Source: Tribonema minus
Taxonomy: Eukaryota; Sar; Xanthophyceae; Tribonematales; Tribonemataceae
NCBI GenBank assembly: GCA_017506865.1
Contig: JAFCMP010000077.1
Location: 62,001-126,000 of the forward strand
Length of the DNA stretch: 64,000 nucleotides
Reading direction: 5' to 3'
How positions within the stretch are numbered: the first letter of the stretch is position 1; every line of letters starts with the position of its first letter. Below the pieces are notes generated by a model, which made no database searches, was not told the origin of the DNA, and was given only the letters and a program-made list of their open reading frames with translations. This document shows, piece by piece, positions 24,420 through 64,000 of this stretch. Made by a program: the position numbers and the translations under genes.

Positions 24420-25322
24420 TCTGATGCGCATTCGATGCTACGCGCAGGCTCGGGGAAGGCATGGACTCCCGACCGGCGCCGCAGCCGGTGGGACTGAGCC
24501 ATGTCGTGTCCGAATGTGTTACGAGTCTAGCCCTATGTGAAATATCAAACCCCAGAGACAGGGCTGGGGTTAGCCTGTTGGCATTGCCAAAAAAGATGCA
24601 AACAAGTAGCTGACGTCAGGCGCTGTTTTGCAAACCCCACTTCTCGCTGATCACATCCCTGACTTCGAACAGCACCCAGGAACAGTACAGTACCCATGCT
24701 GAACTTTTGGCGTGCACATGACCGCGCTCTACGCGCAGCCGACTTTGAACAGTACCCATACTGCATTCCTGACGCATGTTTTACGCGCATTCAGCGCTAC
24801 GCGCAGACCTCGGGGCAGGCATGGACTCTCGACCGACGCTGTAGCCGGTAGCCAATCAGGCTAAGATTCTGGCCGTATGCGATACATCAAACCCTAGAGG
24901 CAGGGCTTGGTTTAGCCTGCTGGTATATTGCCAGAAACGATGCAAGCAAATCACCGACATTGGCGTTCATCTTCAAACCTCGCTTCTCGCTCAGATCATC
25001 CCCGACTTTGACCAGTACCTGTACTGGATGTCTGACACGATTCAACGCCGCGCAGGGGCAGGCACGGACTCCCGACCGGCACCGCGGCCGGTGGGTCTGA
25101 GCGATGCCATGTCCGACAAGATTATTATTCTAGCCCCAATGTAGAATATAAAATGCGAGATGCAGGGCTTGGGGTAGCCTGTTGGGGTCGCCAAAACGGC
25201 TGCAAGCAAGTCGCCGACGCCAGCGCTCGTCTTGAAGCCTCACTTCTCGCTCACAACAACCTTGGCACCTATACCGAACTCCTGACGCCTATTCGACGCT
25301 ACGCGCAGGCCTCGGCGCAGGT
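24420..25322 (+). repeat. Three degenerate copies of the 5' part of four-span exon 1
   Basis: The sequence around the start codon of the four-span gene (gcatggactcccgaccgg, then ccgcagccggtg) occurs three times upstream, near 24456, 24815 and 25060, and a fourth time as the real exon at 25320. Each unit of roughly 250-380 bp also shares tracts such as cagggcttgg, agcctgttgg and cacttctcgct. Each copy breaks off after the first 15 or so codons, so only the upstream region plus the exon's beginning is duplicated. Confidence 0.85.
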
Positions 25323-28300
25323 ATGGACTCCCGACCGGCGCCGCAGCCGGTGGGTCTGAGCGATGTGATGTCTGACGTCAAGAGGAACCCGGGGCGCTGC
25401 GTGGGGTTCTCGTGGTTCGTCACGATCATATTTGTGCTCGCCATGGTGGTGGTGAGCATCGTCACGGCGTCCAAGAATTCGCAGTCGGAGGCCATCGGAG
25501 GAGGTGCGTCACCTATTGTGTAACTTGAACTTGAAGTTGAAGATAGAGTGAACTGCATCACGCTGGCAATGGTGAGCCTCGTCACGGCATTCAAGGACTC
25601 GCAGTAACAGGCCATTGGAGGAGGTGCGTCAATTTTGTGTTACTGTGACTTGAAATTGAAATTAAGAGTTCGAGGAGTGCATCATGCTAGCCATGGGTGT
25701 CGGGAGCATCGTCACGGCATTCGAGGACTTGCGGTCGGCGGTTGGAGGCCACGAAAGAGAGGTGAGGCGCGGGGTCACCTGCGCAATTTCCACTTGAAGT
25801 TGGCATACCCATTGAAGTGTATCGCGCTGCCGCGCATGGTGCAAACGACGTTGCCTTTGAGTGCACGACACCTGCGTTCATGCGTCCCGTTGCGATATTC
25901 TTTTGGACCCGAGCATGCAGTATGCTTCAAAACCACGTTCACAGTTTCCCGTGTCGCATTGCACGCCCTCAGACACGGCGGCATTCACAGCCCTCTGGGT
26001 GCTGCTGGTGCTGCTGGTGTTGCCATATTCATTTGGATTCAAGCTTCCGTCCTTCAATCCCATGTTCACATTTCCCGTTTCTCATTGTATGCCAACAGAT
26101 GCGGCGGCGTTCACAGCCCTCTGGGTGCTGCTGGTGCTGCTTTTGGTGGGCGTCACGGGAACCGTCATACTGCGCAAGTACCACACGCCGCTGGCGGTGG
26201 GGCTGCTGCTGGGGCTGACGTCCATGGTGAGCGCTGCTGCTGTAGGTGAAAATTCGCCAAATTATTGCGGCCTGAACGGTGCTTTGAATTGAGCTGTGCT
26301 GTCAGTGGCCTCCAGGGTGCGCAGCACTAATGCTGTGGGCTAAAATTGACCATTTTGTTGCGGGCTGGATGATGCTGTGAATTGAGCTGTGCTGTCAGTG
26401 ACCTCCATGGTGAGCGCTGCTGCTGTGGGGTGAACCAATCAAATGCTCGCGGTCTGAGCGATGCTCTGAATTGACACACTGAACCGAGTCATGCTGTCAG
26501 CGCCCTCCGTGGTGCAAGTGCTCATGGTCTGAGCCATGCGGATACTCAAGGCACGCCGACGTCCATGACGAGCGCTGCTGCTGTAGGTTCTCAAACAGCT
26601 CCAGGTTGCGCACCTGCGTGATCGTCATGCAGGACATTTCACCCTAACCTTAGGGCTGGATCATCCTCAACAACCTAGTACCTGGCTGCGGCTGTGCCCT
26701 GGCCACGACCAGCTGAGACGTGCTGCACACGCCTGCACCAAACAACTAAGCCATGCTGCGATCAGCAGCTGAGCCACGCTCAGCGGCTGAGCCGGGCTGC
26801 GCCGCGCCACAAGCTGAGGCGTGCTGCGCACCTCTGTGTACCTGCGCAATGTTCAGCTGAGCCATGCTGCCAACTGCGCATCGTGCCGCGCATCTGGCAT
26901 GAACATCAGCGACATTGCAGATGCTGAGCCTCACCGCAGCCGTGCTTACTGCTGCTGTTCGCTGTTGTTGTTGCTCCGTTGCAGCTGAGCCAGCTGCTGT
27001 TCGTGCTGTTTGCGGTCTTCCTGGCCCTTGGGCAAGAGTCTGGCACGTGAGTACCTCGAATTGCCACCTTTTGAAACTGATGTTGCCGAAGAAGCATCTT
27101 CTTCAGGAAGTGTTTTTTTACCCTGCGGGTTTAGGGTTGGCTGCATGGGATTGAGATCGCTGGAAAAGGATACGCATACGTGTCTTGCTGGCGCAGGTGG
27201 GTCTTCCAATTACTTGTGCTCACTCTCACCGCGCGCCTCAGATCCCACCGAGAGCGTCATTGAAGTGTGCTCACCCACGTCAAGTTTTTGTGTTTTGGCT
27301 CAAGAGTAGTTATTTTTACTTGTTCAATAACACTTCAAGCTATTTCTTAGTACTGGGGAATTACAAACCCCACATTGACCTGAGATTATACCTACTGACT
27401 TGACTAGAAGCCCCTGCATAGCGTTTGCCCAGTCTTTGCTCGGTGCTCGACGCGCACACTTTGTCTCAGCTCAGGGTGCTGGAACGGGACATTGAAACAT
27501 ATGAAAAACGAATCAAAAAGATCGTTGAGCTCTAGGTGACAAGGGATGGTTAGCCGCAAGTGCCTTCCACCAATAACCGTGGTCGCCGCTGCTGCAGCAA
27601 TTGGCCACGAGTAAAACAATACCACCGTGTCCACCAGTCAAAATGACTTTTGTGTGCAAGCTTTTAGCGTTCGAGGCGTGGGTGTTCAGTATTGGAAAGG
27701 TCTCACGTGTCCGAACAGATGGCCGGGGAGGCGTTGTGATCGTGGACCACTTCTGTTGCGAACTGTATCATTGCTTGCTGCGGATCTCATCATGTTTGCT
27801 GCTCATACTGGATTTGTAGCTCATCGTCTTGCTGAGAGATACTGACAGTCAGTCTACTTGCGGCTGCCAGCCGTACAGCCGATGTCGACGTTGCCAGATT
27901 GCAACGTGCACCCATCGCGCTTTGCCTCAACGCTCAGCAACAGAAAGCCTGAACACGTTCATGCATGTACCCCCTTGGATCTGAGATTGGCCATCAGCGC
28001 ACAGCAGTAATTGTGTGCTTTCTCTGGTCCAGAGCGTCCCTGTGCCAGAGGCGCTCGCCACCTCCAGATGCTAATCACTTCAACCTAAGAAACAGCGCTC
28101 TCGTCGATGAGCTTCAGATCTCTGTTGCCATGACCATCATGCTGCCCTGTGGATCGCATCCTTGCACCACAGGCCCCCAATGAAATATTGGCCCAAAGGG
28201 CGCAATTGCTGCGATCGTACAAGCATTACTGAAATGCTTGCCTGTGTTGCTGTTCAGCATAACAGTTTTGTGACCTCAGGCAGACTGCATTGCCGCGCGT

Positions 28301-28697
28301 TCGCCTGGCATCCTGAAGCACTTTGTTCAGCTCTGCTAGCGCGACTGACCCAGCGCATCGCGCTTCACATTCTGCTTCTGTCAAAAGGTGATGATTGCTT
28401 GTGTGCACTCAGGTGCTGTCAATTCATTGCATCTTGGTACACTGTACACTGCCAGCATCAATAACTGTCAGTCCTTGCACAATGTTCAACCATGATATAT
28501 CTGTGCTCCAATGTTGACCCCCCTCCGCTCTCCCCCATTGTCGCCCCTCTGTGTCGGCCGCATTACCTGTCTGCCGGTGATGCAGGCACCAAGACAGCGA
28601 CCACGCAATGGCCGCATTTATGTTTATACTATTCTTTTTGTTCTTGCTGTTCAGCATCGTCCTGGCAAAGTTCCGCATGACGGTGATCGAGACATGA
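25323..28697 (+). CDS. Four-span small membrane protein, unrecognised family
   Basis: Exons 25323-25503, 26099-26226, 26985-27046 and 28586-28697 join in phase (donors GTGCGT, GTGAGC, GTGAGT) to 160 residues. Predicted membrane helices lie at about 29-49 (FSWFVTIIFVLAMVVV), 65-85 (FTALWVLLVLLLVGVTG), 90-118 (spanning the exon 2/3 junction) and 131-151 (MAAFMFILFFLFLLFSIV). The N-terminus (MDSRPAPQPVGLSDVM) and the last residues (KFRMTVIET) would both face the same side. The tetraspan layout recalls MARVEL-type and other small integral membrane proteins, but I cannot assign a family. No signal peptide is seen. Every intron except the last is filled with tandem copies of the flanking exon ends. 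An upstream exon cannot be excluded because a CAG lies shortly before the ATG. Confidence 0.85.
25504..26098 (+). repeat. Intron 1 of four-span gene: exon-edge copies
   Basis: Downstream of exon 1, two degraded copies of its end and donor occur near 25565-25630 (gtgagcctcgtcacggc ... ggaggaggtgcgtca) and 25695-25765 (gggagcatcgtcacggc ... gagaggtgagg). Before exon 2, one copy of the intron end plus the first part of exon 2 lies at about 25930-26020 (cagacacggcggcattcacag, then ccctctgggtgctgctgg). The copies preserve the splice-site regions but not complete exons. Confidence 0.85.
26227..26984 (+). repeat. Intron 2 of four-span gene: exon-edge copies
   Basis: After exon 2, the exon end plus donor (tccatggtgagcgctgctgc) recurs in altered form near 26310, 26405, 26505 and 26570, each followed by similar intron sequence (gtgctgtcagtg, ctgaattgagc). 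From about 26700 to 26870 the acceptor of exon 3 (cagctgagccagctg) is echoed in at least four short units reading agctgagccatgctgc or close variants, ahead of the real acceptor at 26984. Confidence 0.75.
27047..28585 (+). other. Intron 3 of four-span gene
   Basis: This 1.54-kb intron has a GTGAGT donor and a tgatgcag acceptor. It contains a piece of a dispersed repeat at about 27480-27640 (see that entry) and no exon-edge copies that I could recognise. No convincing nested gene is present. Confidence 0.7.
27480..27640 (+). repeat. Dispersed repeat, copy 1
   Basis: A stretch with the phrases gagctctaggtgacaaggg, gtggtcgccgctgctgcagc and aattggccacgag. The same block recurs inside the sulfotransferase intron (43970-44080 and 44230-44345, plus strand). 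Part of it recurs inverted at about 46722-46785. The minus strand reads a short peptide phrase (LRLTIPCHLEL) conserved between the 27.5-kb and 46.7-kb copies, so it may be a remnant of a coding mobile element, family unknown. Confidence 0.7.
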
Positions 28698-29846: not shown

Positions 29847-30540
29847 GTGAGAAGATCCTGGTCCAAGCAGAAGGTATTCTACCAACAGAACCGCGAGCGG
29901 ATCAGGGCCAAGCAGAATGGCTACTATCTCTCGCAGCGGAAAATTGTCTGCTCAAAGCTGCGGTCGCTTCAAGATATCCGCTATTGGGAGCTGTATGAGG
30001 AGGAGGCGGAAGGGTGGGAGCCGGTGCGCAAGGCCAGCGACCTGCTCGAGGACGTCTTTGCAGTCGAGAACAACAAGGCGCTTCTGGACGGTCTGGTCAA
30101 TAAGAAGGTACCGTTCTACATCTATTTGGCCTCGGCGCCCCGTGAGGAGTGGGGCTAGCACGCGCGGTTCGCCTCCAACATCAGCTGCATCACCCCCCTC
30201 TTCATCAAGGCCAATGGCGACCCGCTCACCCACACCGAGGCGAAGGAGCTCCTCAACCACCGTGTGCTCAGCTCTAGCGATTCACTGGTCAACAAGGACA
30301 AGCGGGAGGCCCAACTGTAGTGGCACTTCATGCACCTCCAGCCATACCACCGCCTGTGGCAGTGCAACCGTTGTGACGGCTTGCCGGCCGAGATGCCCAA
30401 CGGGCAGCTGGCGTGCCCGCTGGAGCTGCGCTCGAAGGCCGAATCCTTAGATGAGGACGTCACCTTCGCGTACTGGATGCACGGCGATGGCGTGGAGTGC
30501 ATTGCTACACTGCAAGGCGGCTGGTGCCGGCACCGGCGCA
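29847..30540 (+). pseudogene. Decayed open frame with NRE-repeat start, unknown family
   Basis: Translation gives protein-like sequence with the phrases YQQNRERIRAKQ, GWEPVRKASDLLEDVF and HARFASNI, then ANGDPLTHTEAKELL and RLWQCNRCDGLPAEMPNGQL. The N-terminal Tyr/Asn-Arg-Glu pattern resembles the basic repeats seen at the start of many algal and large-virus proteins, but I cannot name the family. The frame carries several breaks, so it is not a working gene as read. A partial copy lies inverted just downstream (30600-31054). Two short CxxC-like residues (CNRC) could have been a metal site. Confidence 0.6.
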
Positions 30541-30599
30541 CTGCCACACTGTCAGGTGGGGGTACGGCACCAGGTGCATGAAGTGGCACTGCAGTGAGG

Positions 30600-31054
30600 C
30601 CTCCAGCTTGTACATGTTCACCAGCAAATTGCTGGAGCTGAGCACACAGGGTTGAGGTTGAGGAGCTCCTTCGCTTCAGCGTGGGTGAGCGGGTCGCCGT
30701 TGGCCTTGACGAACAGGGGGACGTTGGTGCCGATGTTGGAGGCGAACCGCGCGTGCTCACCCCACTGGCACGGGCACGGGCGCCGACGCCAGATGAATGT
30801 TGAAAAACAGCACTTCTTGTTGACCGAATCGTTCAGGTGCGCCAAGATCTTCTCGACTGCGAGTCGCTGACTTTGTGCACGGGTTCCCACCCCTCCCCGG
30901 CTGGGATCCAAATCCCCCGTGAATTCATGTCATCGCCCAAGGTTTGGTTTACGGCTCTCAGGGCCTGCCACGTGGTGGGCGGAAACCATAGGGAATTCAA
31001 AACATCGTTGTTAGCGAAGGCCTGCATAGGTATTGTCGAGCTGCTGCACGCCAC
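30600..31054 (-). pseudogene. Inverted partial copy of the 29.8-30.5 kb frame
   Basis: On the minus strand this encodes GEGWEPVHKVSDS, HARFASNIGTNVPLF and ANGDPLTHAEAKELLN, clearly paralogous to the plus-strand block and arranged head to head with it about 300 bp apart. Its upstream part (phrases LWFPPTTWQALRAVN, DDMNSRGIWIP) has no match in the other arm, so the two copies derive from different members or different parts of the family. It is decayed. Confidence 0.6.
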
Positions 31055-43060: not shown

Positions 43061-45160
43061 ATGAGTAGGCCCAGATGTACATCGCCGAGGCGCAGCCCGT
43101 TGCTGGCCCGTAATTGGCGAGGTCTGCTGCCGGTTGTAGTGCTACTTTTGCTAATAAAAGGCCTGCAGGCAACAAGAGACGAAGAGCTGGTAGAACTGCA
43201 GGTTGACGTCAGCGGGGAGCTAGCGCACAGCATCGATGATCAAGCGCATAACCCGCCCGCGATCAACAGCGTCAACCCCGACGTGCTGCGGGAGGGCGAC
43301 TTCGCCCTGGACCACCTCCTGATCGTGCCGGAGTACAAGCTCATCTTCTGCTTCATCGCCAAGGTCAGCTCGCTGAGCTTCAACGACCTGCTGCGCTCGC
43401 TGCGCGCGCCCTTTGACCCCGGCATGCTCGAGGGCGAAGCGTACGGGCGCATCATCCCCTTCGGCCGCAACAGCTACCGCAGCCACAACTGGTCGCTGCA
43501 GGACCTGACGGACGCCCTCCACGACCCCGCCTGGCTCAAGGCCGTCTTCTACAGGGAGCCGCTCACGCGCTTCGTGAGCGCGTACAGGGACAAGTGCGGC
43601 AAGCGGACGCACGGCGCGCGCGGCCTGCCTCCGCGCAACCGCCGCCGCCGCGCCTGGAGCCCGCTGCACGAGCGCAAGGCCAACCACAAGCACGACAAGA
43701 TCTGCCTGCGCAGCTTTGGCGAGGACTGGCCGTCATTCGAGACGGTGGTGGATCGCCTGCTGCGGGAGCCGCGCGTGACGGACCCGCACTGGCGCAGGCA
43801 GCACGAGTTCTGCGGCGGTCTGGATCGCTTCATAGGTATGTAGGTATGGTGTGGTGCGTTTCGCACTCAACTCATTTGCTTGAATGATTGTCCGTAATGG
43901 TGGGGATCTGCTTGGGCGTACTTGATTGGCTGCAAGACAGGCCATCATCAATCACAGTCATGGAAGCGATTCAGAAGATCGTAGAGCTCTAAGTAGGTGA
44001 CAAGGTGTGGTTAGCCGCCAGTGCCTTCCATCGATGACCGTGGTCGCCGCTGCTGCAGCGATTGGCCACGAGTCCTGCGGCGGGCTGGACCGCTTCATAT
44101 ATATGTAGGTACGACGTGGTGCATTCGCAATTAACTAAAAACTAATTCGCCTTTATCATTGTACGCGGTGGTGGGGATCTGCTGTGGACGTGCCTGATTG
44201 GCTGCAAGACAGGCCACATCAATTACAGTCATAGAAGCGATTCAAAAGGTCATAGAGCTCTAGGTGACGAGGCGGGGTTAGGCGCCAGTGCCTTCCACTC
44301 ATGTGGTCGCCGCTGCTGCAGCAATTGGCCACGAGTCAAACAGTGCCACAATATCCAAAGGAGCCAAAAGGCTTTGAGGTACGGTGCGTTTGCGATCAAC
44401 TCATTCGCTTGTATGATCGGCCATGGTAGTGTGGGATCTGCTATGGACGTTCTTGACTGGCTGCAAGACAGGCCATCCTGAATCGCCTTCACGGCCATAG
44501 AGTGGTGCTTCAGGTCGCGTGCTCTTGCTTCGTGCTGCCGGTCTAGCCTGCATGCCACGGCCTTCTACTCCTCTCAAGGCCTGCAGAAACGCACGTCAGG
44601 CAGAAAGGCAGCAGGTTGAGGGCTCATCCGGGTCGGTGGTGTAGCAGCTTTGCGCCGCGCTTGCAGCTCTATCGAGGCGTTGTAGACACCACACCCGGAG
44701 TCCCACATAACCTGGCACACTCCATAACCCTAATCCAAGCCCAGTAGCCTGCGCAAATCTCAGCCTTCAGCCCCCCCGCCCCCTCGATCCCCGCCATCTT
44801 ACAGGAGAGTTCCAGTTCGTGGAGGTGCTGGAGAGGGCCACGTCGCGCGAGAAGGTGGGAGAGCTGCTGGCGCGCGCGCACGTTCCGAACTTCAACAGCG
44901 ACGCCGCCTTCAACTTGAGGTTCCCGCCCACCGCGCCCGGCGACGCCTCGCGCGACCCTCACGCGACCAACGCCGACGCCGCCGCACGCAGCTACTACAC
45001 ACCCTATCTCGCATGCGTGGTGTTCCAGTACTATTACGATGACTATGCGCTGTTCGGGATGCAGCTGCCAGAGTGGGCGCGCGCGTGGGGGCTCTACGTG
45101 GAGGGGTGGCGGATGATAGACTGCCACACGCTGCGGGGGGGGGGGGAAGCCGGGGGCTAG
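43061..45160 (+). CDS. Sulfotransferase-family protein, type II membrane
   Basis: Exons 43061-43835 and 44805-45160 join in phase 1 (donor GTATGT, acceptor cttacag) to 376 residues. After a basic N-terminus a single hydrophobic helix (GLLPVVVLLLLIKGLQA, about 23-39) fits a Golgi-type signal anchor. The lumenal part has features of the sulfotransfer_2/carbohydrate sulfotransferase fold: a PAPS 5'-phosphosulfate-loop-like KVSSLSFNDLLRSL at about residue 100, a 3'-phosphate-binding-like REPLTRFVSAYRDKC at about 165, and the C-terminal HWRRQHEFCGG...RFIGEFQFVEVLE pattern seen in HNK1/chondroitin-type enzymes. It probably transfers sulfate to a cell-wall or matrix glycan; the substrate is not inferable. 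The final 15 residues run into Gly-rich sequence. The intron carries tandem copies of the exon 1 end. Confidence 0.82.
43836..44520 (+). repeat. Sulfotransferase intron: about 245-bp tandem copies of exon 1 end
   Basis: The end of exon 1 with its donor (tgcggcggtctggatcgc, then ttcataggtatgtagg) is repeated in diverged form near 44068-44110 (tgcggcgggctggaccgc). A third unit near 44375 retains only the intron part (ggtacggtgcgtttgcg). Each unit continues with actcaactcatt, ggtggggatctgct and gattggctgcaagacaggcc, and two of the three contain the dispersed block gagctcta...gtgacaagg. The unit length is about 245-300 bp. Confidence 0.88.
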
Positions 45161-45912: not shown

Positions 45913-48900
45913 ATGACAGGTGCCTGGCAGGCCGTGCGCTCCCTTCTGCTGCTCCTCTCCATATCCTCGGCAGGCGCCTTCCTGTCGGCGGCTTCCGGCA
46001 CCGCACTCACTGGCGGAATTGGATCTTCGAGGCAAGCACTGTCCATGATCTTGCGGACGGATGCGGATAGGGAGGGGCGCAAGATGGGCAATCCTCGCGC
46101 CTTCGAGTATTTGGTGGATTACCCCTGCAAGTTCCAGATCAAAGCAGTGGGCCACAACAAAGGAAACCTAGCAGATGATCTGGTGAGAAAGACGTGGAAC
46201 ACTGCCCGGAAGCGTGTGCTGCCATGCAAATAGTAATTTGCCCTACACATTGCGATAGTTAATCGCTGCTAATGAAAGCCCTTGTCCGAGGGGGCCACAG
46301 GACCGTGCTGTGCTGCTGTTGACGATTTCCGAGGCGACGTGGGTGGCGGCAATCCGGAGCCATGCTTGCGTGTACGTCGCCATACAATGATGAGATTTCA
46401 GGCAGTCTTGTCTGCACCCTATGTTGACACGTCAGTCGTAGTGGGCATGGCGGAGCTGATTTGGACGCAAAACCGACAATCAGGGCAGTGTTGATCAGCA
46501 ACCTCTAGCACACAGCAACTGTCACTGTTCTGTAGCGTGCCTGTTGGGAGCACTGGCATGGATAGGTGTATTGGTTGTGCAGCTGTGCATCGGCTGCAGC
46601 CCGTGCGCTCGATTGCACAAAGAGCAGACCAGCCTGCCAACCTACGGTGTAGTGCAGAATGCCACCAACTGCCCATAACCCACCTTGGTTGCTTTCCATA
46701 CACTTCAACGTACACACATAACATACTGCGGCTAACCATCCCTTGTCACCTAGAGCTCTACGATCTTTTGATTCGTTTTCATACACTGTAGCACAGTATG
46801 CACGTCATCTAAATGATTGCGGTCACATGTGCGCCAGGTGCAGAGTCATAGCCGATGCGCCCACATACGCCAGCCGCACACGTGGGTGTCACATCGTTCA
46901 ACAATAGTGTAGGCTCTTAGAGCCTGTCGTCCTGAGCTGGTGAGTTTCCTGCTCAAGTGGCTACACATATCGCCGTCACAGCAGGCATGACAGAAATTCA
47001 ACAACCCTTTTTACCTACCCAAGCCGAAGCCGCGCCGCATATTGACAAGCGTGTCGCCATCAGCGGGCGCGCTACTACGGAACCGGCTGCGTGTGTCTCT
47101 GCAGGCCGCGCTAGTGGCTATCGTGTGCAAAGTGCAGCCCGGGACACTAATTCACAGTTTCAAGGCATAATAGCGCTCATTGAAAAAATTCCTACAGAGA
47201 TGTTCAACTCCTGTGACTGTCAGGGGTTCGAGTGGCTGCCTGTGCATTCCATGCCTGCTTGTGCATTCGTGGGGCCTGCTGTCAGGGTTGGGGCTAGGGT
47301 TTAGAATCGGCCTGCGGCGATTGAGGTGGGACACAGCCTCACAGTCACAAGACGCAACAGCGTTCATAGCCAAAATGTACATATCAGGGCCTGTCGTCAT
47401 CAGCTGGTGCACTGCCTGCGCTTCCCTGTGTCAACGATTATAGATCTTCAAGCCAGTCGTCATCAGGTGGTGCAAGAGTGGATGCCTGTGCTTCCATGCT
47501 TCACGCAGGCTGCGCTGATGGGGAGCGTGTGGGACTGTGGCTAGGGTGAGGGTTAGGGCCAGGCCTGCGGCGGTTGTGGCGCACAAGACCACAACAGCGT
47601 TTTTTTGGCAAATTACAGATCTTCAAGCCTGTCATTATCAGCTGGTTCAGGAGCGGCTGCTTGTGCTCCCTTGTGTTGCGCAGGCTGCGCTGGTAGGCAG
47701 TGTGTGCGAAGTGGAGCCTGCGGCCGTGGAGTACACCGTGCGCGACACGGACTCCGGCAAGTACAGGAGCGTGACGCTCATGGCGCCGGTCAGCAATTCT
47801 GACATGCTGTACAAGGTGAGCTAGTGACGTTGATGAATTTCTGCAAACTTCAACATCGTCGCGCGCAGCTCTGACATGCTGTCTAAGGTGAGACGGGCGC
47901 GCTCTGGCATCTGAAAAACAGTGGTGAAACTGCTACAAACATCAATGTTCTGGATTTGAAATGAAGAAGCGCTCAATGCGTGGTTTACGAAGCAACGGCG
48001 CCGGTCAGATGCTGTACAAGGTGATACGAGCGTGCTCTGGCATCAGAAAACAGTAGCGAAACATCAATGATTTGGATTTGAAACGAAGAAGCGCACAATA
48101 CGTGGTTTAAGAAGTGATGGCGCTGGTCAGCAACTCTGACATGCTGTACAAGGTGAGACCATCACTGAGGCGAGCTTGCTCTGGCACGAGAAAACAGTGG
48201 TGAAACCGTTTCAAAGATGCTGATATGGATGAATGGTTTCATCTGGAAGAAAAAGCGATGCATATGTGGTTCGAAGAATGATGGCGCCGGTCAGCAATTC
48301 TGACATGCTGTACAAGGTGAGAAAGAGCTCTGGTCAAGCGAGATAAAGCAGTTGTGCATTGCAAGGTGAGAAAGAGCTCTGGTCAAGCGAGATAAAGCAG
48401 TTGTGCGCAATGCGCCATCAGCTGGTTGAGATGTGCTACGTGCTACTCATGGCTGTCAGCAACTCTGACATGGGCCAGTGGCCACATTGTAAGGACCACA
48501 CTGGTCAAGCGAGACAAAGCAAGTGTGTGCAATGACAGTGAGCTGGTTGAAATGTGCTATGTGATGCTCATGGCGCCGGTCAGCAACTCTGACATGCTGT
48601 ACAAGGTGAGGTAGTGACGTTGATGAATTTCTGCAACTTCAAGGGTTCACCCCAACATCGTCGCGCGCAGCTCTGACATGCTGTCTAAGGCGAGACGGGC
48701 GCGCTCTGGCATCTGAAAAACAGTGGTGAAACTGCTACAAACATTAATGTTCTGGATTTGAAATGAAGAAGCGCTCAATGCGTGGTTTAAGAAGCAACGG
48801 CGCCAGTCAGCAACTCTGACATGCTGTACAAGGTGATACGAGCCTGCTCTGGCATGATAAAACTGCGGCGAAACCGTTAGACTACAAAGATGCTGATATG

Positions 48901-49977
48901 GACTGCTCTGGCAGCAGAGAACAGCGGTGAGACCATTCCAAACATGCTGATGTTGACACATTGCACAGGGGGAGAAGAGCTGGCTCTTGCATATGGAACA
49001 GCGGCGAAAGCGTTACAAGCTTGCTGATATGCATCAAGGACTTGATTTGGAGCTCTGCATGCGTTGTTCAAAGAGTGATGGCGTCAGTCAGCAACTGTGA
49101 CATGCTGTGCAAGGTCAGAAGAGTCTTCTCTAAGATCAGGAAAAAGTGGTAAAATGAAATAAAATAAAAACTACTATGGCATCACAAACAGTGGTGAAAC
49201 CATTCCAGCTTGCTAATACGCCTACAGTGGAACGGCACTGTGTCAAAATATGAGGTTCAATGTGATATTTATGGGACTGGTCAGCAGCACTGACATGCTG
49301 TTCAATGTACGAGCGTGCTGTGACGTGGTGCAGCTCGGTTTTCTACAACAAATGCAAATGTTGCCCATTGGCATTTTCCCCTACTTTGTATCGACAGCAC
49401 CGGTCAAGCGTTAACAATCACGTGTGTGCAGACGCGCAATCAGCTGATCCAGGCTAGTCATGCTGCCCTGCTTGATCCCTGCTGAGCTATGATGGCTTTT
49501 GGTACGTCGAAGCATGCATAGCCAGCAATGGGACTATGAGCTGCACAGTTCTACGTTCTCCCTCTGCACTGCGGGTGCACGTCCTTCAACTTCAAGTTTC
49601 AACCTCAACATTGTCGCGCAAACAATTAGCCAAAACCCCTTGGTTTTGGCTAATTGTTGGCCACAGTAGGTACCGCTGTGGTGGCACGGGGCAGTGATTC
49701 TTCGTTCCAGAAGTAGATCGATGATGCTCAGCACTGCATGGAGGGAGCGAAGATTCAAACGATTGTACGTTTGCAAGCATCCTTCAAGTGCGTACATGCT
49801 GTAGAAATATATGTACCGCAGCATAATCTGACGCCAGCGCTTTGCTCCATCCTGGCTAGCATATACACGGGAAGCTGCTGATATCTTGTTGCTGTTTTGC
49901 CCACTTGCGTTGTTGCCCCGCTATCGCAGTGCTACGAGGTCATCGGACAAGACGAGCGAGTGAGATTCAAGTTTTGA
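45913..49977 (+). CDS. DUF493 (YbeD-like) protein with plastid-type presequence
   Basis: Exons 45913-46182, 47684-47815 and 49930-49977 join in phase 0 to 149 residues. Residues 70-149 match the DUF493/YbeD fold: YPCKFQIKAVG at 70, SVCEVEPAAVEYTVRD in the middle, SGKYRSVTLMAPV at 114-126, and the terminal DERVRFKF. Bacterial YbeD and its plant relatives are small ACT-like domain proteins of uncertain role. The N-terminus (AVRSLLLLLSISSAGAF, about 7-23) looks like a signal peptide ending in an SAGAF motif followed by a Ser/Ala-rich stretch, as in bipartite presequences of complex plastids. Plastid import is therefore inferred. The frame is also open upstream through a GTG codon, but the ATG at 45913 gives the best presequence. 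Confidence 0.92.
46183..47683 (+). repeat. Intron 1 of DUF493 gene with copies of exon 2 acceptor region
   Basis: The sequence before and into exon 2 (gtcattatcagctggttcag ... ttgcgcaggctgcgctggtagg) is echoed at about 47390-47435 and 47445-47535. The latter includes a copy of the acceptor and exon start (cttcacgcaggctgcgctga) that soon runs into a stop. An inverted fragment of the dispersed repeat lies at 46722-46785. The rest has no supported gene. Confidence 0.75.
47816..49929 (+). repeat. Intron 2 of DUF493 gene: about ten copies of exon 2 end and donor
   Basis: The exon 2 end with donor (gcgccggtcagcaa, then tctgacatgctgtacaaggtgag) recurs in more or less altered form near 47873, 47998, 48118, 48280, 48463, 48568, 48670, 48800, 49080 and 49275. 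Spacing is 85-210 bp. Copies near 48280 and 48568 are almost perfect. A longer segment, 47816-48000, is repeated nearly identically at 48607-48800, showing a second, more recent duplication of about 790 bp. A 41-bp piece beginning gtgagaaagagctctgg is doubled at 48317-48400. Confidence 0.92.
49621..49658. repeat. Perfect 17-bp inverted repeat (hairpin)
   Basis: The arms aacaattagccaaaacc and ggttttggctaattgtt are exact complements separated by four bases. It lies in the last part of DUF493 intron 2, about 270 bp before the final exon. No T-run follows and no terminator role is implied. It could be the end of a small palindromic element or fold in the pre-mRNA. Confidence 0.9.
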
Positions 49978-51625: not shown

Positions 51626-54600
51626 TCACGCGATGGGTATGCGCGCGGTCTCAGGCAGCGCGCCCTCCGCGGCGAGCTTCTCCGCGCCCTTGCCGTCCGG
51701 AGCGTCACCTTCAACAGCAGCATCAGCAGCACTCAGCTCGTGCCAGCGCCGCTCATCGCCGGCAAAGTCGCGCCCCCTGTGGTTCTCCAGGCTGAAGACG
51801 AGGTACACGGCAGTGCACAGCAGGATGCCAAAGAGGTTGACGCCCAGGAGCTCGGCGTAGTGGCCGCTGCCGATGGCAAAGTTGCTGTAGTCGATGTTGA
51901 GCTCGGGCTTGTCGGTGGAGAGCTGCAGCGTGATGCCTGGGGGGGGGGGGCGGTGGGCAGTTGAGGGGGAGGGGTCTCAGCATGGGCAACGCTGTTACAG
52001 CGCAGAGGGAAAGCGCGGAAAGACAAGAATACTCTGCATAAATGCTCGAATGATGTGGTCCATGTTCAATTTGGGCCTGGGGGAGGGGGGCGGGATCAGC
52101 ATTGGCCAATGATGTCACAGTGCAGAGGAATGGCCACTTTGAGCTGCTGCACTTGGTTGAGCCCCTGTCGGCAACGCTGGATTCAGGGTTTTTAAACAAC
52201 GTCCGCGATGCGATGCCTGCAGCACGCGCATCGCCCCAAGGGGGGCAGGATGTGGCAAGGGGAATATGGGGGTCCGACTGTCATGACACTGCATCAAACA
52301 TCTGTATGTGCGGCAGCTAACGTTCTTACAGCAGAACCGATGCCGGTGATCAACAACACCGGCGGCCGCTGTGGTGCTGAGCCGTGAGGCCTGCGGCACG
52401 TGCGCCGGGGTTGAAGATGAAGGTGAAGGTGCTGCGGCAATGTCAACTTGAAGGGGAGCAAGGCTCACGATCTGCCAGCGCCTCTGTTTAGCAGTGGCAA
52501 AGTCACTGCAGTTGCGTTCACAAGCTGCAGGGCTCCCGCTGATCCTCACCCTAAGGAGTGCAAACTAACCTTATCACTGACCCTGAGCCATACAGAGTAC
52601 ACCCCGCTGACTACACACCTGTGCAAGGGTCACGGTTAAGGTAACAACTAGCAGTTTTCAGAGCGTTGCCGGCAATACATACTGCATCCAAAGCCAGGAC
52701 TACTAATACCACCAGCATCAGAATGAGCATCTGCCACTGTGGCGCTTTCTCTGCGTGTGAAGTACAGAGCACCCTAGCCAGCCAACACTATCAACTCATT
52801 CAGCAGCTGAGAAAGCGCTCCCAACAGCAGTGCTCACCGAGAATCGCGCCAACCCAGAACGACATGTGAAACGCCAGAGGGCGGTACCCCGGGAATATTC
52901 CGCAGAAAATTACGGGCGGTCCCAGGCCCATCACTATGGTGCCGCTCACAGTGGTCGCGCTGAGGACCTGCGCAGCGGCGACGGCAGGGTAGCAGTGATC
53001 AGTGCAGTATGTCAGTGTGTGCAACAGCGTTCCGCAATGGGCGTCTATGACGACCGGCGGTGCGTTCAGGTCAGGACCTGCGTAGCCGCAATGGCGCAGG
53101 GGCAGTGCTCAGCGTAAGAGAACGGGCGTGCAGCAGCGCTCAGCAATGGAGGTGCATCACGAGTTGAGTCACTGTGGCACGACTGCTGGTCGCGTTCAGG
53201 ACCTGCGCAGCGGCGACGGCAGGGTGGCAGCGATCAGCACGAAAGGGCTGGTGTGCAACAGCGCTCGGCAAAGGACGCGCATCACACCCGGCGGTAGCCG
53301 TGCTCTGGACCTGCGCAGTGGCGACGGCAGGGTGGCTGTGCTCAGCATCAGAGCGTGTGCAACAGCGCTCAACAATGGTTGTGCATCGCGAGCTGAGTCG
53401 CTGTGGCACAACTGCTGGTCGCGTTCGGAACCTGCGGAGCAAGGATGGCGGAGTGGCAGTGGCAGTGCTCAGTGTGAGAGTGGGCATAAGAGCGCTCGGC
53501 AATGGACCCGCATCGCAACCGGTGAACGGTCGCACTCAGGACCTGCGCAGCGGCAATGGCGGGTGGCAGTGGTCAGCAGAAGAGTGGGAGTGCAGCAGAG
53601 CTCGGCGATGATCGCGCATCACAAGCGGCGGTCACGCTGAGGACCCGCGCAGCGGCAATGGCAAGTTGGCAGTGCTCAGCACGAGTGTGTGCAACAGCGC
53701 TCGGCGATGGATGTGCATCACAGCGGAGCGGGCGCATCGGATCGAACGTGCAACGCAAGATCGGACGCACGCCGTTATGGCGCTCGAGAGGTGGCAGCGC
53801 AGGTGGCAGCGCTCAGGTGGCAGCGCTCAAACAAGCGCAAGTGCAACAACCAATGCACTCCACGGCTCATAGGACCGCGTGTGCGGGGGTTTCCTCACTG
53901 GCGCGTGAGATAGCCAGTATGCTGGGTATGTACGTATGCTCTCTGAGCACTGAGCACTCGCTGTCAGCATGCTTGTCTTCAACTACGAGTACGGTGCTGC
54001 AGTGTTGCACGCACGCACCACAGAGCCTGGCAGCAGCGGACTGCATGGGTTAGGGTTAGGGTTAGGGTTAGAGGACCGACCACGGCCCAGCACCGTCATG
54101 CTGACGCAGCCGACACGAACGTCGTTACTAACGTCCAGGGGTGCTCTAACTCCCCCTGACTTGAACCTCGATTGAAGCCCTGAACAAAAGCGCTTGCCGA
54201 GCGGTTTGTCAGCAGCGGCAGTTCGCTGGCAATGGGGCCATCTGATCCACTGATGATTCACCGTTGTGCTGATGCAGTCAACGGTGAACATTGTTGACTT
54301 CGACATCCAATGGGCTCTGAAGGCTCGCTCTTACCCTGACCTTCACCCCGTACACCGAGGGGTCTGACAGCAGCGGCAGCGGGCCGACCAAGGCCGTCAC
54401 ACCGCCGTGCGCATGCGGCCAACGAGAACGTCATTTGCATACGTCCAGGGAGGTCTTGCACCCCAACCAATGTACCTAATGTAGCTGTACCCAACCCCAC
54501 TAGTAACTGTAACCCTACCAGAGCACTGACTGAGGGGTCTGACAGTAGCGATAGTGTGCCAACGATGGCCATGACTGCCATGCTGATGCGGCCAACGAGA

Positions 54601-57600
54601 ACGTCCAGGGAAGGCCTCCGCGGACACGTGCGGGCTTTGAATCCCCACCCCCTTTATTGCAAGATTAACCCCGACAAAAGCACTCGCTGAGGGGTCTGAC
54701 AGCAGCGGCAGCGTGCCAATGAGAGCTATGACCACCATGCTGATGCGGCCAACGAGAACGTCTCGGGGGGCTTCAAACCCTTCAACAACCCCTGCTCTCA
54801 ATGCTAGACAATTACGCACCGAGGGGTCCGACAGCAGCGGCAGTGTGCCAACAATGGCCATGACAATCATGCTGATGCGGCCGATGAAAACATCCAGGGG
54901 GGAGGCCTCCGCAGGCACATGTGGGGCTTTGAAATCCCACTTTGAACTACAAGTTCAATTCTAACATAATCACTCACCGAGGGGTCCGACAGCAGCGGCA
55001 GCGTGCCAATGATGGCCATGACGACCATGCTGATGCGGCCCACTAGAACGTCCAGGGCGGAAGCCTCTGTGAGCTCGTGGGGGGCTCTGAACCTCTACCG
55101 CCATTGCACCTACAACCCTGTAGTTTTAACAAAGCACTCACTGAGGGGTCTGACAGCAGCGGCAGCGTGCCAACGATGGCCATGACGACCATGCTGATGC
55201 GGCCAACAAGAACGTCCAGGGGGGAGGCCTCCGCAGGCACGTGTGGGGCTTTGAAACCCCACTTTGAACTACAAGTTCAATTCTAACATAATCACTCACC
55301 GAGGGGTCCGACAGCAGCGGCAGCGTGCCAATGATGGCCATGACGACCATGCTGATGCGGCCCACTAGAACGTCCAGGGCGGAAGCCTCCGTGAGCTCGT
55401 GGGGGGCTTTGAACCTCTACCGCCATTGCACCTACAACCCTGTAGTTTTGACAAAGCACTCACTGAGGGGTCTGACAGCAGCGGCAGCGTGCCAACGATG
55501 GCCATGACGACCATGCTGATGCGGCCCACTAGAACGTCGAGGGGGGAGGCCTCCGCAGGCACGTGCGGGCGGCCGCGCCGGAAGAAGCCTGTAAGCTCCA
55601 GCCCCACAAGCTTCGCGGTTGAGCTGCGGACGCAGGGCAGGGGGGGTAGGCAGGGTTTGGCGTCAACTAGGGTTTGGCGTCAACCAGGGTTAAGGTTAGT
55701 CTAGGCTCAAAACGGATGCAGTAGCGTTTGGCACTGACTATGCAGGGTCACAGCAGGCACAACAGGGGGAATTGGAGGCCTTTGAGCTGCGAGTGCTGGA
55801 CAGAGTGGGGCTTGACGTCGACTAGGATTAAATGAGGGCTGTGTAGGTCAAACCTGGTCCAAATGCGGGCAGAACTTGGAGAATTCGGCACTGGGGTAGA
55901 AATCCAACAAAGCGAAGCAGGCTCCACCCACGAGCTTGAGCTGCGCATGCAGGCCAGAGTAGGGCTTGAAACTTGTTACAATTTGGCGTTGTTGCACAAT
56001 TAGGGTTATATGCCCTACTTGAGGTCAGTACCTCTTGAGAGGTTGTAGTTGAAGTGCAGTTTTGTTTGCGAGCTGTGTCGACATCAGCTCCAGATCATTG
56101 ATGTAGGTAACTCAGCAATCCTGAGCTGGCACGCGCAAATTTGCTGGTGATAGTCACATCACTTCCTTCACCACCCTCCAGCGGTGTGTGTGTTACTTGT
56201 GGCTGCCTGTGTTTGCCTCCGCGCTACGCATTGGTGCGGCGTGGCGTGCCAGCCTGCGCGCGTAGCTTTCTATCGGTTATGATAAAAGTAGGAAACGTGA
56301 TCATGCCCGACTGTGACATGAGCAGGTGGTACCACTCAAATGGTATGGAAAACCATCAGGTACGCCATCAGCTGTGGATTGGTGATGAGGCGGCGAGGGG
56401 ATATTTATTCTGACTGCAGGAAGGCAGACGAGGCGCGAAATCAGGCCATATACGACGATGCCCAGCAGCAAATCAAAGCAGCACGCGAACGTGTCTTCAC
56501 CCGCGTGCACGAGAAGCAGACAAACCAACAGCGCGCGTTGCGCAGGCTGGTGACGGAAGGGGATATGAGACACGCACAGGCGCGGCAGGCAGTGGCAGAA
56601 ACGAAGAGCAGAGAGCTGTTGTGGCGCTGTGTGCATGAAGATGCTTCCGTCACCGTGCAACGACGGAAGCATCTTGGTGGGGATCTGTGCACGCGTTGGT
56701 GCATGCACACAGCGCCACAAACATCTTGGTTGGGATCTGTCCACGCCGCCGTGCGTGCACACACTCCCTGCTCTTCGCTTCTGCCAGTGCCTGCTGCGCC
56801 TGTGCGTGTCTCACATCCCCTTCTGTCACCAGCCCGCGCAACGTGTGCTGTTGGTTCGTTTCAAATTGCTTATCGTGCACGAGGGTGAAGACACGCTCGC
56901 GTGCTGCTTTGATCGGTTGCTGGGCTTCGTCGTGCATGGCTTCATTTTGCGCCTTGTCTGCCTCCCTGCAGTAAAAACATCCTCTCGCCGCCTCTTCCCA
57001 ATCCACAGCAGACAGCGTACTTCCTGGTTCTCCTACCGCCTGAGAGGTACTACCTGCTCATATCGCAGTCGGGCATGATCACATTTTCTATCATAGCAAT
57101 AGAAAATCTCACCCAAGTTCTAACCCCGACACAGTGTCTTCATCCGCAAAGCGAAACGCACAGTGGTACACACATGCAAGAGATGCCAGCAGCATGCTGC
57201 ATTAGGTCAATTGAAATGCGTGCGCCGCGTTGCACTACATACAGTACAACCACCAGAGAGGGTTTTTTGTGCGTGCCTGTGTAGAATGCAGCTCAGAGTC
57301 AGGACTAGGATGAGGGTTACAGGAAGATTGGGCACTCGCATGCAAGGTACCTCTTTGCAACAATGCCACTGCAGCACATTGCTGCCCCGCAGGGATGCCT
57401 GGTGGCGCACTGCAACAGATGCCAAGAGCTAGGGTTAGCGCCAGAATTAGGGTTATCCGTGCTTTTCCGCCGTACCTGAAGGTGGAGTCTATGGTCGACA
57501 AGCTGCTGGTGAGGAAAACCAAGTTCATGATCGTGAAGAAAGCTGTTCCGATGGACCGCGCAATGCTGCATGGGACGTGACAAAACAAGGACATGAATCC

Positions 57601-60600
57601 AACAATGAGTCCATGAACGGATTCAAGACGTGAATGAATGCATGAATAGCCTTGAAGACGCTCTGTGCACATGTTGCCACCACCCAATTGTAGCCGTTCT
57701 CAAAGCTCTGGCCCTACCCCTATCTAACTGTCAACCGTGACCTGGGCTTGCCATGATTAGTTTCCCTAGGGGCCCCCGCGTAGGTGGGGTCCCTGGGGAC
57801 AGGTGGGGCGTTGCACGCATTTGAGCGTGCGTGTCGCCCCACCAACAAAGTTTAACATGCATCATTATCCTGACACAATTGCCTAATCCTAGGCAGTGCT
57901 CAGGCCTGAGCTCACCTCGAGGGGACGCCCCCGAAGTCCCCCTCGTAGCTGGGGTCATCAGGGGACAGGTTGAGCGTTGCGCACACATGCCATCCACTCA
58001 CCCTAGCCCGGAACACTAGCTCTACACCTTTTCATGACTGAATGCCCCTTCGAAGGCTTACCTGGAGGGGACGGTCCCCCTCATTATTAGGGTTGTCGGG
58101 GGACAGGTTGTGCACTCGTGCCATCCACTAACCCTAGCCTGAAACCCTAGCTTTACACCTGTCCCTAATTGAAACCCTGAAAAAAGCTCACCCCCCCAAG
58201 TCCCCCCCGTAGTTGGGGTCGTTGGGGGACAGGTTGAGCGTTGCGTGCATTTGACCTACGTGTTGCCACCATCAAAACCTGCATCGTTAAGCTGACAACT
58301 GCCTAACCCTCAGGCGAGCTCAGGCCTGAGCTCGCCTTGAGAGGACGCCCCCCAGGGCCCCCTCGCAGTTTGGGTCATCGGATAACAGGTTGAGCGTTGC
58401 GGACATTCGAGCGCTGCGCGCATTTGAGAGTTGCCTATGTGTTGCCTCCAACAAACATTCATCCGTACGCTGACAACTGCCCAAGCCTCAGCAGTGCTCA
58501 GGCCTGAGCTCACCTTGAAGGGGACACCCCCCAGGTCCCCCTCGTAGTGGGGGTCGTCAGGCGACAGGTTGAGCGTTGCGTACATGGTGCCATCCACTAA
58601 CCCTAGCCCCAGACCCTGGTTCAACTCTATCTGTAAGTGAAATTCAAAAGATGGGCTCACCTGGAGGGGACACCCCCCATATCCCCCTCGTAGTTGGGGT
58701 CGTCGGGCGACAGGTTGAGCGTTGCGTACATGTTGCCGTACACGCCAAAGAGGGAGAAGAGGAAGATGAAGACGGCGGCCACGGTGCCGCCGCCTATGAA
58801 CGACTTGAGCATCATGCGCGGGCTGCCGAGGAAGGCGCGGTCGACCAAAACCTGCGCACGTGCACCACCGCCAAAAGGTGTGATTGGTTTAGTTCTAGTT
58901 CAGTTCTGACGTGACTCATGCACTACAGTGAGGGTTTGTCCTGTGAGCATGCATGGTCATGAATGACAGTGCCGCCGCCGACTGATGGCTTGAGCATCAG
59001 AGCGGGCTGGCAAGGAAGGCGCGGTCAACCAGGACCTGCGCACATACTGGTGCCCTAGCGTTAGCGTTTGACCTGACAGTGCAATGGTCAGGAATGAAGG
59101 TGAACGCCACCGATACACGACTTGAGCATCATGCGCGGGCTGCCGAGGAAGGCGCTGTCGACCCGAACCTGCGCGCATGCACCGCCGCCACAAGGTGTGA
59201 TTGGTTTAATTCTATGTAGTTCAATTCTGCCGTGAATCATGCACTGCAGTTAGAGTTTGACCAGTGATCAAACTCATGAAATGACGGTGCCGCTGCCGAC
59301 ACACAAATTGAGCATCGCTATCCAGAGGACGACGCGTGTGACCACTGGCAGGACCTGCGCACATAATTTTGCCCTAGCGTTAGGGTTTGACCTGAATGTG
59401 TCAGCATGCATGGTCATGACTGTCAGTGCCGTTGCTGACAAAAGACTTGAGCATCATGCGCGAGCTGCCGAGGAAGGCGCGGTCGACCAGGACCTGCAGC
59501 GCGCGCAGATTTTGCCCTAGCATTAGGGTTTGACCTGACAGTGTGAGCACGTAAGGTCATGAATGGCGGTTGCTTCTTACGATGCCGCCGCCGCTGAACG
59601 ACATGAGCATCATGCGCGGGGTGCAGAGGAAGACGCGGTCGGCCAGGACCTGTAGTGGGCGCAGAATGGTGCCCTAGAGTTAGCGTTTGACCTGTACGCA
59701 TCGTCTTCCAATGACGGTGCCGGCCCATCACTAAACCACTTGAGCATCGACTGCGGGCTGCAGTGAAAGGCGCGGTCAACCAGTAGTCAAAGTGCTTTCG
59801 GTTAGGGCGGCCCCCGCACCGCATCATAGCTCCAGCAGCCGGAGCTGCCCAGCAGCTACGCCATGAGAACATACTTCCCCAAATGAATTCCTGCAGTGTG
59901 CTTCAACTCGTGAAAGACTTCACTGCGTGCACTCTGAATTGGTGTCCAGTGCGGTCACTGTGAACGATCGTCATTCGCTCGCGCACTGCGTAATAAAACC
60001 GGTACCTGAAGCTGCCCCGCAGCAGCCCCGCAAGAGCACACTTCAACAATTATCACAATCAGAATAAACTCCGGCGCTGTGTCTCTGACTTCAGTGGTCA
60101 CTTCTGAACAAAGAACCCGTAGTTGAAGCTGCCCTGTAGCAGGCCTGAGAGAGCACACTGTGGCAAATGAGCCCTTGCAAAGCACATCATAGCGCCTTGC
60201 ACTTTCAGTACGTTCATGTTATCGACTGCTCATTCGCTCACGCACCGCATACGTTCATTCTATCGACTGCTCCTTCGATCACGCACCGCATCAAAGAACC
60301 CATAGCTGAAGCTGCCCTGCAGCAGGCCCGTGAGAGCCAGATCCAGCCCTCCCTCGAGCGAGAAGGGCTTGATGCCGGGGCTAGGGTTCCACAGGAACAG
60401 GTTGCAGTTGTCAACGCCGTCGCAGTTGAGGTCTCGCGTCAGTGCTCCGACGACGGCGAGCATCGCCACGAGCAGCAGCACAACCAGCACCGCCTGTGCA
60501 ATGATACAAGAAGCGCGTCGAGAGGGGAAGACAAATCTTCAACTGCGACTGAGCGTTGAGGTCAGTTGAGGTTGCGCATCAGCGCTCCGAACACGGCAAG

Positions 60601-62208
60601 CATCGCCACGAGCAGCAGCACAACCAGCACCGCCTGTGCAATGATACAAGAAGCGCGTCGAGAGGGGAAGACAAACCTTCAGCTTTGACTGAGCGTTGAG
60701 GTCAGCTGAAGTTGCGCATCAGCGCTCCGACCACGGCGAGCATCGCCACGAGCAGCAGCACTACGTGCACCGCCTGCGCGCGTCAATACGAGGGCGCTTC
60801 CGATTGTAAAAACGGTATCGCGCATGTTTGTGTATTGTTCAAATGCTGGATAATGTACATCGACAGATCTGTAATTTTAACTTGGCTGAGCGCTCCGATG
60901 ACGGCGAGCTGGCCAAGAGCAGCAGCGCCACGAGCACTGCCTGTACGTAACGAAAAGGGAAGTCAAGACTTGAGCTGTGACTGAGCACTGAGGACATGCG
61001 TCAGCGCTCCGATGACGGCGAGCATCGCCACGAGCAGCAGCACCAACAGCACTGCCTGCATGCGCCCAAAAAATAGCTGTTTCACTGAGCGACAGTGCAG
61101 CAGCGGTCTGACGGAACAGACAGAACAGAAGCATGCTGAGCGCTGAAACACTTTTGATATCAAAGTTGCCGCAGCCTGGTGGCCTGATACCACCGCCAAC
61201 CCTCCCTTGCTTGGTACTTAGCACTAGGTCTGACCTAACCCTAGCACTAGGTCTGACCTGAACCGTGTCCGACACTATGGCGGAGCGGATGCCACCGGTG
61301 AGCGTATACACGAGCGGAATCGCCGTGGAGACGCACGCGGCCAGCCACCAGTCTGCCGAGCCGTAGTCGCCTGCGCGCACGCACGGGGCGATACCACGGG
61401 GGGTTAGGCGCCTTACGGGGGGGATAAGGTTAGTCGCCATGGGGGTTGCGGTGAGGCGACTCATGAGATGAGGTCAGTCGCCTGCCCACGCGCAGAGCGA
61501 CGCCGTCTTTTTGCGGGATAAGATTAGTCGCCTGCGCACACGGGAGTGTCGCCTGCGCACACGCGGAGCGATGCCACGGGGGGTTGTAGTGAGGCGACAT
61601 ACGCATGAGGATGCGCCTAGCAATTCGTTCCTGCAGCAGACCCTCCCAGAACCGGCGGCCCCATTCTTGGGTCCAAAACCTGCAGTCATCTCTCGCTGCG
61701 CTGCCGAAAAACGCACCCCTTTGTGGCACGAGAGGACATGCTCCAAGTGCACGTATTCATGGATGAGATGAGGAAACGGTCTGCGTAGGGTCGTTTGCAC
61801 GCGCCCACATTGTAGCCCAAACTAGAACCCTAACCCTAACAAAGCTGGTGACCGCGCCAGGATCGGCCGTGTCTCCCCGGTAGCTACAACAAAACTGCCT
61901 AGAGACACGAGATTTGATGCCACTTCTGACTAGCGACTTCATCACTCTCCATGTCTTGAGTCATGACATGAATCAAAGTAGCTGTGACTAGTTGTGGACA
62001 CTGGCTACCAATGACACAAATCCACGCAGTAAATGAACCAATATGCACGATGACAAAACACAACCAGTCCACGCCAATTGTGTTGACGCTTATATGTCCC
62101 ACAAATGTGTTGTCTTGCCAACACTACGGTCTCTGTTTGCGGGGCAAGATTTTTCCTCTTCTCCAACACCATCAGAAGCATCGAGCAGCCGCTGCAGCGT
62201 CGCCCCAT

Positions 62209-62246
<38 letters not shown>

Positions 62247-62268
62247 CCACCACCACCACCACCACCAC

Positions 62269-62304
<36 letters not shown>

Positions 62305-63726: not shown

Positions 63727-64000
63727 CTGCAGCGCGCGGCAGCAGGCGACGCCGTTGCAGAGACAGGCGTGTCAGCACAAGTGGTGATTACAGGTGTGCC
63801 ACACTTGAAGACGGCGACAAGTGCGTAATCACTTGGAGTGAGCGCTGCGCCCTGTCCGTAGATGTAATTGATCGCCTCCGCTGCGGCGCGGCAGCAGGCG
63901 ACGCCGGTGCAGAGGCAGGCGCGTGAGCACGAAAGGTGCCTCACCGCTTGACGATGAAAAAAGTGGTGACGACAGGTGCGTCAAACCTTGAACAGGCAGT
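63727..64000 (-). repeat. Copy of the acceptor/5' part of symporter exon 1 (first visible exon)
   Basis: The intron end and exon start (plus strand gttgatcgcctccgctgc, then agcagcaggcgacgccgttgc or a variant) recur at 63830-63940, with the peptide start AEAIN-YGQGA preserved before the copy breaks off. A further echo of the intron part begins near 63960 (gtggtgacgacaggtgcgtca). The true preceding exon is therefore expected beyond the window. Confidence 0.85.

Follow-up and report, generated by a model that had tools for sequence, protein, structure and literature searches.

In the xanthophycean stramenopile Tribonema minus, the splice junctions of many introns recur inside these introns as decaying tandem copies, each with a piece of the neighbouring exon. 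These arrays were studied in a window of 64,000 nt from the T. minus assembly GCA_017506865.1 (158 Mb, 554 contigs) and in an independent sample of kinesin genes from the same genome. An earlier note had described tandem units over exon-intron boundaries in four genes of the window, i.e., a four-span, a sulfotransferase, a DUF493, and a symporter gene, and self-alignment, gene models, and copy searches bore this out. The anatomy of the junction arrays is sound, and they are present beyond the window in kinesin and chaperonin genes. Tandem duplications that are repeated at the junctions, silent, and decaying thus probably lengthen the introns of T. minus from both ends.

Junction arrays in four genes of the window

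Copies crossing a junction were found with blastn probes at 12 of the 24 splice junctions of the window, and in the whole-region self-alignment 12 of 25 listed junctions were crossed. The spliced sulfotransferase model (353 aa) is 100% identical to the annotated T. minus protein P0054 (marked partial), which agrees with the junction 43835|44805, and the spliced DUF493 model (149 aa) is 100% identical over its full length to P0067 (JKP88DRAFT_206811) of T. minus. At these junctions the exon models therefore agree with the annotation, and this holds for the donor that precedes the nine-copy DUF493 array. The published models of both genes use the outermost sites, i.e., the first donor and the last acceptor, and skip the copies. 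Reading frame and GT/AG sites defined the exons of the symporter, which were compared with homologues by eye; a Pfam scan of the rough symporter concatenation gave no match. The exons and arrays are given below with their strand and the evidence for them.

24411..25375, +, four-span gene, start-codon array of four units, extending into its first ~45 coding bases (self-alignment)
25323..25503, +, four-span gene exon 1, from the ATG to the donor at 25504 (frame, GT donor)
25570..25741, +, two downstream copies of the exon 1 end, with exon parts at 25570-25623 and 25685-25741 (copy search; donor copy at +120)
25976..26015, +, upstream copy of the four-span exon 2 start with acceptor (copy search; acceptor copy at -126)
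26099..26226, +, four-span gene exon 2 (AG/GT, frame)
26311..26580, +, degenerate repeats of the donor region of four-span exon 2, downstream of it (self-alignment at 26311-26474; at +341 a weak copy of the donor that includes 13 bases of the exon)
43836..44475, +, sulfotransferase exon 1 donor (43836) with a 265-bp downstream array; exon-part copy at 44067-44099 (self-alignment, blastn, copy search)
47437..47534, +, upstream copy of the acceptor of DUF493 exon 2 and the first bases of this exon, pairing with 47612-47709 (self-alignment, blastn)
47684..47815, +, DUF493 exon 2, real copy (protein P0067)
47816..49307, +, DUF493 exon 2 downstream array with nine donor copies (self-alignment, pattern and copy searches)
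60563..61055, -, four upstream copies of the symporter exon B start (self-alignment, copy search)
60287..60493, -, symporter exon B, real copy (gene model; homologue P0014 by eye)
59820..60154, -, three downstream copies of the symporter exon B end (copy search)
58966..59782, -, six upstream copies of the symporter exon C start (self-alignment, copy search)
58661..58851, -, symporter exon C, real copy (gene model)
57773..58591, -, six downstream copies of the symporter exon C end (self-alignment, copy search)
55464..55623, -, symporter exon E, real copy (gene model; Heterococcus homologue P0013 by eye)
54355..55379, -, seven downstream copies of the symporter exon E end and donor region, ~160-bp period (self-alignment, pattern and copy searches)
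53187..53728, -, five upstream copies of the symporter exon F acceptor with a short exon part of 12-16 bases (self-alignment, blastn)
52838..52967, -, symporter exon F, real copy (gene model; P0013 by eye)

The nine donor copies downstream of DUF493 exon 2 were counted by pattern, and alignment recovered seven; the seven clear copies downstream of symporter exon E are joined by two weak ones. A second annotated sulfotransferase, P0055, is 61% identical to the first, which suggests a possible gene family on one contig.

The array at 24411-25375 is a tandem array of another kind, since what it copies is the beginning of the first coding exon, ATG included, rather than a proven splice junction. 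Its units comprise sequence upstream of the start codon, the codon itself, and the first ~45 coding bases, so that the duplication process may act at coding edges besides splice junctions.

Junction arrays beyond the window

The independent sample was based on the kinesin motor domain (PF00225), which has 132 matches in the genome. From about 46 loci, counted by eye, 20 were taken that had several matches; in these, exon matches and 68 introns were identified by means of a profile derived from the kinesins of this genome (loci L002-L031 served for the profile only). We kept 61 of the 68 introns, leaving out ids 0, 15, 16, 20, 27, 29, and 37 because of weak or odd splice calls; intron id 64, which probably contains a missed exon, was left out of the test with full masking and of the later counts, and its donor out of the codon test described below. 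An array was scored as crossing a junction when one repeat arm extended over it by 12 bases on both sides.

Crossing copies were found at 30 of the 122 junctions in the 20 loci, i.e., at 15 donors and 15 acceptors. Surplus matches to the kinesin profile turned out to be partial exons, e.g., at L042, where four copies of model positions 246-273 precede the exon that covers positions 249-327. This stretch of L042 (6878-8243), in which the four partial copies hold the first ~75 bases of the exon, is among the clearest cases outside the window. Chaperonins (PF00118, 56 matches) have partial copies with the same polarity at three junctions, as judged from match positions only. Markov-shuffled kinesin loci (one shuffle for each of the 20) gave no match, compared with 287 in the real sequences at an equal threshold.

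The periods of the crossing kinesin arrays range from 53 to 210 bp, and head-to-tail units also appear in the Tandem Repeats Finder rows. Recognisable local tandem arrays span about 38% of the sampled kinesin intron DNA, and 73% of this span lies in edge-crossing arrays. The copies also seem to be ordered by age: in 16 of the 19 arrays that hold three or more copies, the score of the alignment to the exon drops with distance from it (mean rho 0.46), and older copies thus tend to sit farther from the junction.

Arrays as events at splice junctions

Local, repeated duplication associated with splice junctions, the process proposed in the earlier note, gains support from the placing of the arrays, which cross junctions more often than random placement would have it. 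Enrichment at junctions is clear when arrays are counted as events and absent when covered bases are counted. For the event test, each array was taken as one event and its place was compared with random placement inside the same intron. Altogether, 40 of 59 arrays cross a junction; three have no separable copies, one of them crossing. The 56 arrays with at least two separable copies include 39 crossing ones versus 14.8 expected (27 of 43 versus 10.7 in the kinesin sample, 12 of 13 versus 4.1 in the window). Arrays of three or more copies cross in 26 of 28 cases (0.93; 9.0 expected) and two-copy arrays in 13 of 28 (5.8 expected), and the two shares differ with a Fisher p of 3e-4.

Exons, and then also exon-derived copies, were masked to reduce the advantage that slowly changing exon sequence has in such searches. 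With the exons masked, 20 of 44 kinesin arrays (9.2 expected, P 6e-5) and 10 of 13 window arrays (4.0 expected) still cross. With exon-derived copies masked as well, crossing is seen in 23 of 49 arrays overall (11.2 expected, P 6e-5), in 10 of 14 in the window (4.0 expected), and in 13 of the 19 arrays that have at least 85% identity (4.1 expected).

Several results weigh against a junction bias. After full masking, a modest excess is left in the kinesin sample (13 of 35 versus 7.3, P 0.014), and the exon-masked two-copy kinesin arrays taken alone have no significant excess (7 of 22 versus 4.1, P 0.094). Base-level coverage of the kinesin introns has no peak at the junctions: donors are crossed in 14 of 61 cases and acceptors in 15 of 61, while interior points are covered at 0.245 (position-weighted) or 0.178 (intron average). 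The trend with distance is negative in 3 of the 19 arrays and weak in others. Expected counts depend on estimated unit lengths, and for grown arrays these counts are inexact. The junction at 3584 of L032 may itself be a copy, and without it 38 of 55 arrays cross versus 14.3 expected. Finally, the sample comprises one gene family plus the window, and the choice of kinesin loci with several matches possibly favoured genes with partial copies. The flat base coverage can be read differently, because copies made at the junction fill the interior of the intron. Overall, a small sample lends moderately strong support to the junction bias.

The boundary between the classes is not sharp: 6 of the 19 non-crossing arrays have an edge beyond the junction without a qualifying arm, and crossing and abutting arrays blur into each other. 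Outside the modelled introns, 12 arrays were counted in about 39 kb of the window, a remainder whose genes are unmodelled, versus 13 in 16.0 kb of introns; several of these 12 are simple repeats or nested counts of one repeat.

Formation bias, persistence, or uniform duplication

The most serious alternative, which we regard as possible but rather unlikely, is that the initial duplications occur at random and that arrays containing a constrained exon piece keep a homologous template and therefore keep growing. Such persistence would fit the stronger excess in arrays of three or more copies and the trend of age with distance, and in short simulations anchoring to the exon lifted the crossing share of grown arrays from 0.21-0.22 to 0.38-0.44. 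However, within the small parameter range covered, no setting that combined anchoring with feedback and yielded more than 10 multi-copy arrays approached the observed value, and the two-copy arrays are enriched as well, although not significantly in the exon-masked kinesin arrays alone. The excess of two-copy arrays favours biased formation and the stronger excess of multi-copy arrays favours some persistence.

It is improbable that tandem duplication is simply uniform along genes, with exonic events selected away, the pattern at the junctions a matter of geometry, and copies kept recognisable by the slow change of the exon. The flat base coverage agrees with uniform duplication, and geometry accounts for two features that had seemed telling. 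The polarity described in the earlier note, with only a part of the exon copied and on the intron side, is real as an arrangement but is no evidence, because a unit that spans one junction must leave an exon fragment on the intron side and a complete exon joined to one copy. Complete exon copies, none of which the earlier note had found either, are indeed absent from the 38 kinesin exons with both junctions called, but this is uninformative, as only 0.9 would be expected from unit and exon lengths across the 28 crossing arrays; strong selection against whole-exon copies, suggested there, is thus unneeded.

The proximity of arrays to junctions points both ways. An array edge lies within 50 nt of a junction in 52 of the 59 arrays, which speaks against uniform placement, and the simulated share is 0.16-0.67 (by simulation set 0.44, 0.57-0.67, and 0.16-0.67), so that part of the observed proximity is expected in short introns. 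The excess at the event level and the grown arrays are more difficult to reconcile with uniformity. Simulations with uniform placement gave crossing shares of 0.43-0.54 for arrays of three or more copies (four runs with more than 10 such arrays) versus the observed 0.93; with growth feedback the share was 0.21-0.44, and 0.00-0.25 in long feedback runs. Within this small parameter range, no simulation with more than 10 such arrays exceeded 0.54, while runs with at most seven scattered from 0 to 1. Two-copy crossing under uniform simulation was near the formula used for the expected counts in most runs, and the formula is therefore roughly calibrated for two-copy arrays; for grown arrays its expectation was mostly too high. 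Equal rates of duplication and deletion mostly lost the arrays, and settings with growth gave large internal arrays.

Fate of the copies

Between the real exon and its copies, changes per site amount to 0.093 at codon position 1, 0.091 at position 2, and 0.183 at position 3. The resulting third-position ratio of 1.99 (confidence interval 1.60-2.42), with an excess at 34 of 42 junctions and the reverse at 7, matches the 2:1 expectation for a real exon that is constrained and a copy that decays freely. Among the copies themselves the ratio is about 1.6, as expected if they left the functional junction at different times. The many decoy splice sites foreseen in the earlier note are present, but nothing points to a role for them: with 8 of 102 bases altered in the donor GT and 8 of 92 in the acceptor AG, compared with 0.092 for codon positions 1 and 2 together, their rate of change is about neutral. 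The decoy sites are neither retained nor purged.

These data make it very improbable that the copies are functional in general, i.e., that they are alternative exons, backup splice sites, or regulatory decoys under selection, and the annotated models of two genes also omit them. Support for a function comes from the exon parts of the copies, which at 30 junctions are on average more alike than the intron parts (p 0.008 and 0.024), a comparison confounded by short exon parts and partly by the unit borders. The array of symporter exon E stands out in this respect: its exon part is far better conserved than its intron part, and the changes in the copies nearest the exon, judged by eye, are mostly synonymous or conservative. 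With such strong codon-like conservation, the copies in this array might be used.

Comparison with known systems

Intron gain by tandem genomic duplication has reportedly been treated by Rogers and by Hellsten et al. in 2011. To our knowledge, minisatellites tied to splice junctions have not been reported, and T. minus shares with intronic minisatellites, whose units measure about 10-100 bp or more, the head-to-tail tandem units of this size. Literature searches, whose scope did not include the T. minus genome paper, returned no description of junction-tied arrays among the matches listed, as judged by title and the start of the abstract.

It is highly unlikely that the introns studied here arose when an exonic AGGT segment was duplicated in tandem. 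That process, documented in other systems, e.g., for the RdRp gene of potato (PMC4974935), is likewise local, acts beside or inside exons, and is silent through splicing. It makes a new intron from an exon, however, and according to PMC3443670 places downstream-exon sequence at the start of the intron and upstream-exon sequence at its end. In T. minus, existing introns would grow, and the copies are mostly placed the opposite way: among 72 introns, copies of the upstream exon lie in the first half in 52 of 66 cases and copies of the downstream exon in the second half in 47 of 54.

Introner elements are a dispersed mobile family. Despite a likeness in their widespread effect on the introns of protists, where invasive intronic elements are reported (PMC7789003), a dispersed introner-like origin, like an assembly artefact, can practically be dismissed: the T. 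minus arrays are built of their own junction, with 120 exon-end copies from the same gene in the 72 introns (all direct, none inverted) and 2 from the exon ends of another gene, the one 1-kb stretch searched genome-wide (24420-25420) has a single match when very common words are skipped, and mis-assembly would not be expected to give the copies a divergence with a codon pattern.

In tandem exon duplication the copy is an entire exon with its two splice sites, and the likeness to the T. minus arrays lies in duplication within genes; the difference is the lack of whole-exon copies among the kinesins. Direct repeats of 4-30 bp, one at each intron border, were read as insertion scars by Rogers and Bendich (2025; PMC11782384). 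They likewise lie near splice sites, whereas the T. minus units of about 50-200 bp are arrayed at one junction.

Other repeats of the window

A tandem segment duplication of 1,063 bp (31270-33388) has 97% identity and contains two repeats of ~330 bp in each copy; it involves no exon edge of a modelled gene. Long inverted repeats lie over coding-like sequence at 30060-30860 (one stretch; four pairs of nested arms, each arm 27-111 nt long, with 77-87% complementarity) and at 56299-57080 (several stretches; five such pairs, with arms of 36-111 nt and 74-90% complementarity). A perfect GA repeat of 36.5 units occupies 23402-23474.

Proposed mechanism and significance

Tandem duplications of about 50-200 bp would arise, or survive, preferentially at the edges of exons. 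A duplication over a single junction would remain silent while splicing continues to use the copy attached to the exon, i.e., the first donor or the last acceptor, and the extra copy would then sit within the intron and decay. Serial events at one junction would move the older copies inward, and the introns would lengthen from both ends and fill with pseudo-junctions. Growth of introns through arrays, as the earlier note proposed, finds agreement in the greater median length of the 35 introns with arrays (909, compared with 591 for the 25 without), but longer introns also have more room for arrays.

The first duplication may result from the repair of staggered nicks, or of a break with little homology, and be followed by re-duplication. 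Among the young tandem pairs, 5 of the 16 listed have an alignment length within -4 to +3 bases of the period, which is consistent with little microhomology, and the pairs are too few for more. The symmetry of donors and acceptors argues against a mechanism linked to a single step of splicing; it favours some property of exon edges, or preferential survival of duplications at them. A more specific version, in which exon-intron edges are themselves the target of duplication in this lineage, e.g., through breaks or nicks from co-transcriptional splicing or through exon-edge chromatin, is put forward tentatively and with less than even confidence. If the edges were specifically targeted, introns would grow like conveyor belts from both ends, and their size would reflect a balance between duplication at the junctions and decay.

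The lengthening of introns is usually ascribed to transposons and random insertions. If the situation in T. minus is general, it would represent a second, testable route of intron growth and a natural record of the silent duplication of splice sites. It would also provide a natural experiment on how the spliceosome chooses among many near-identical sites.

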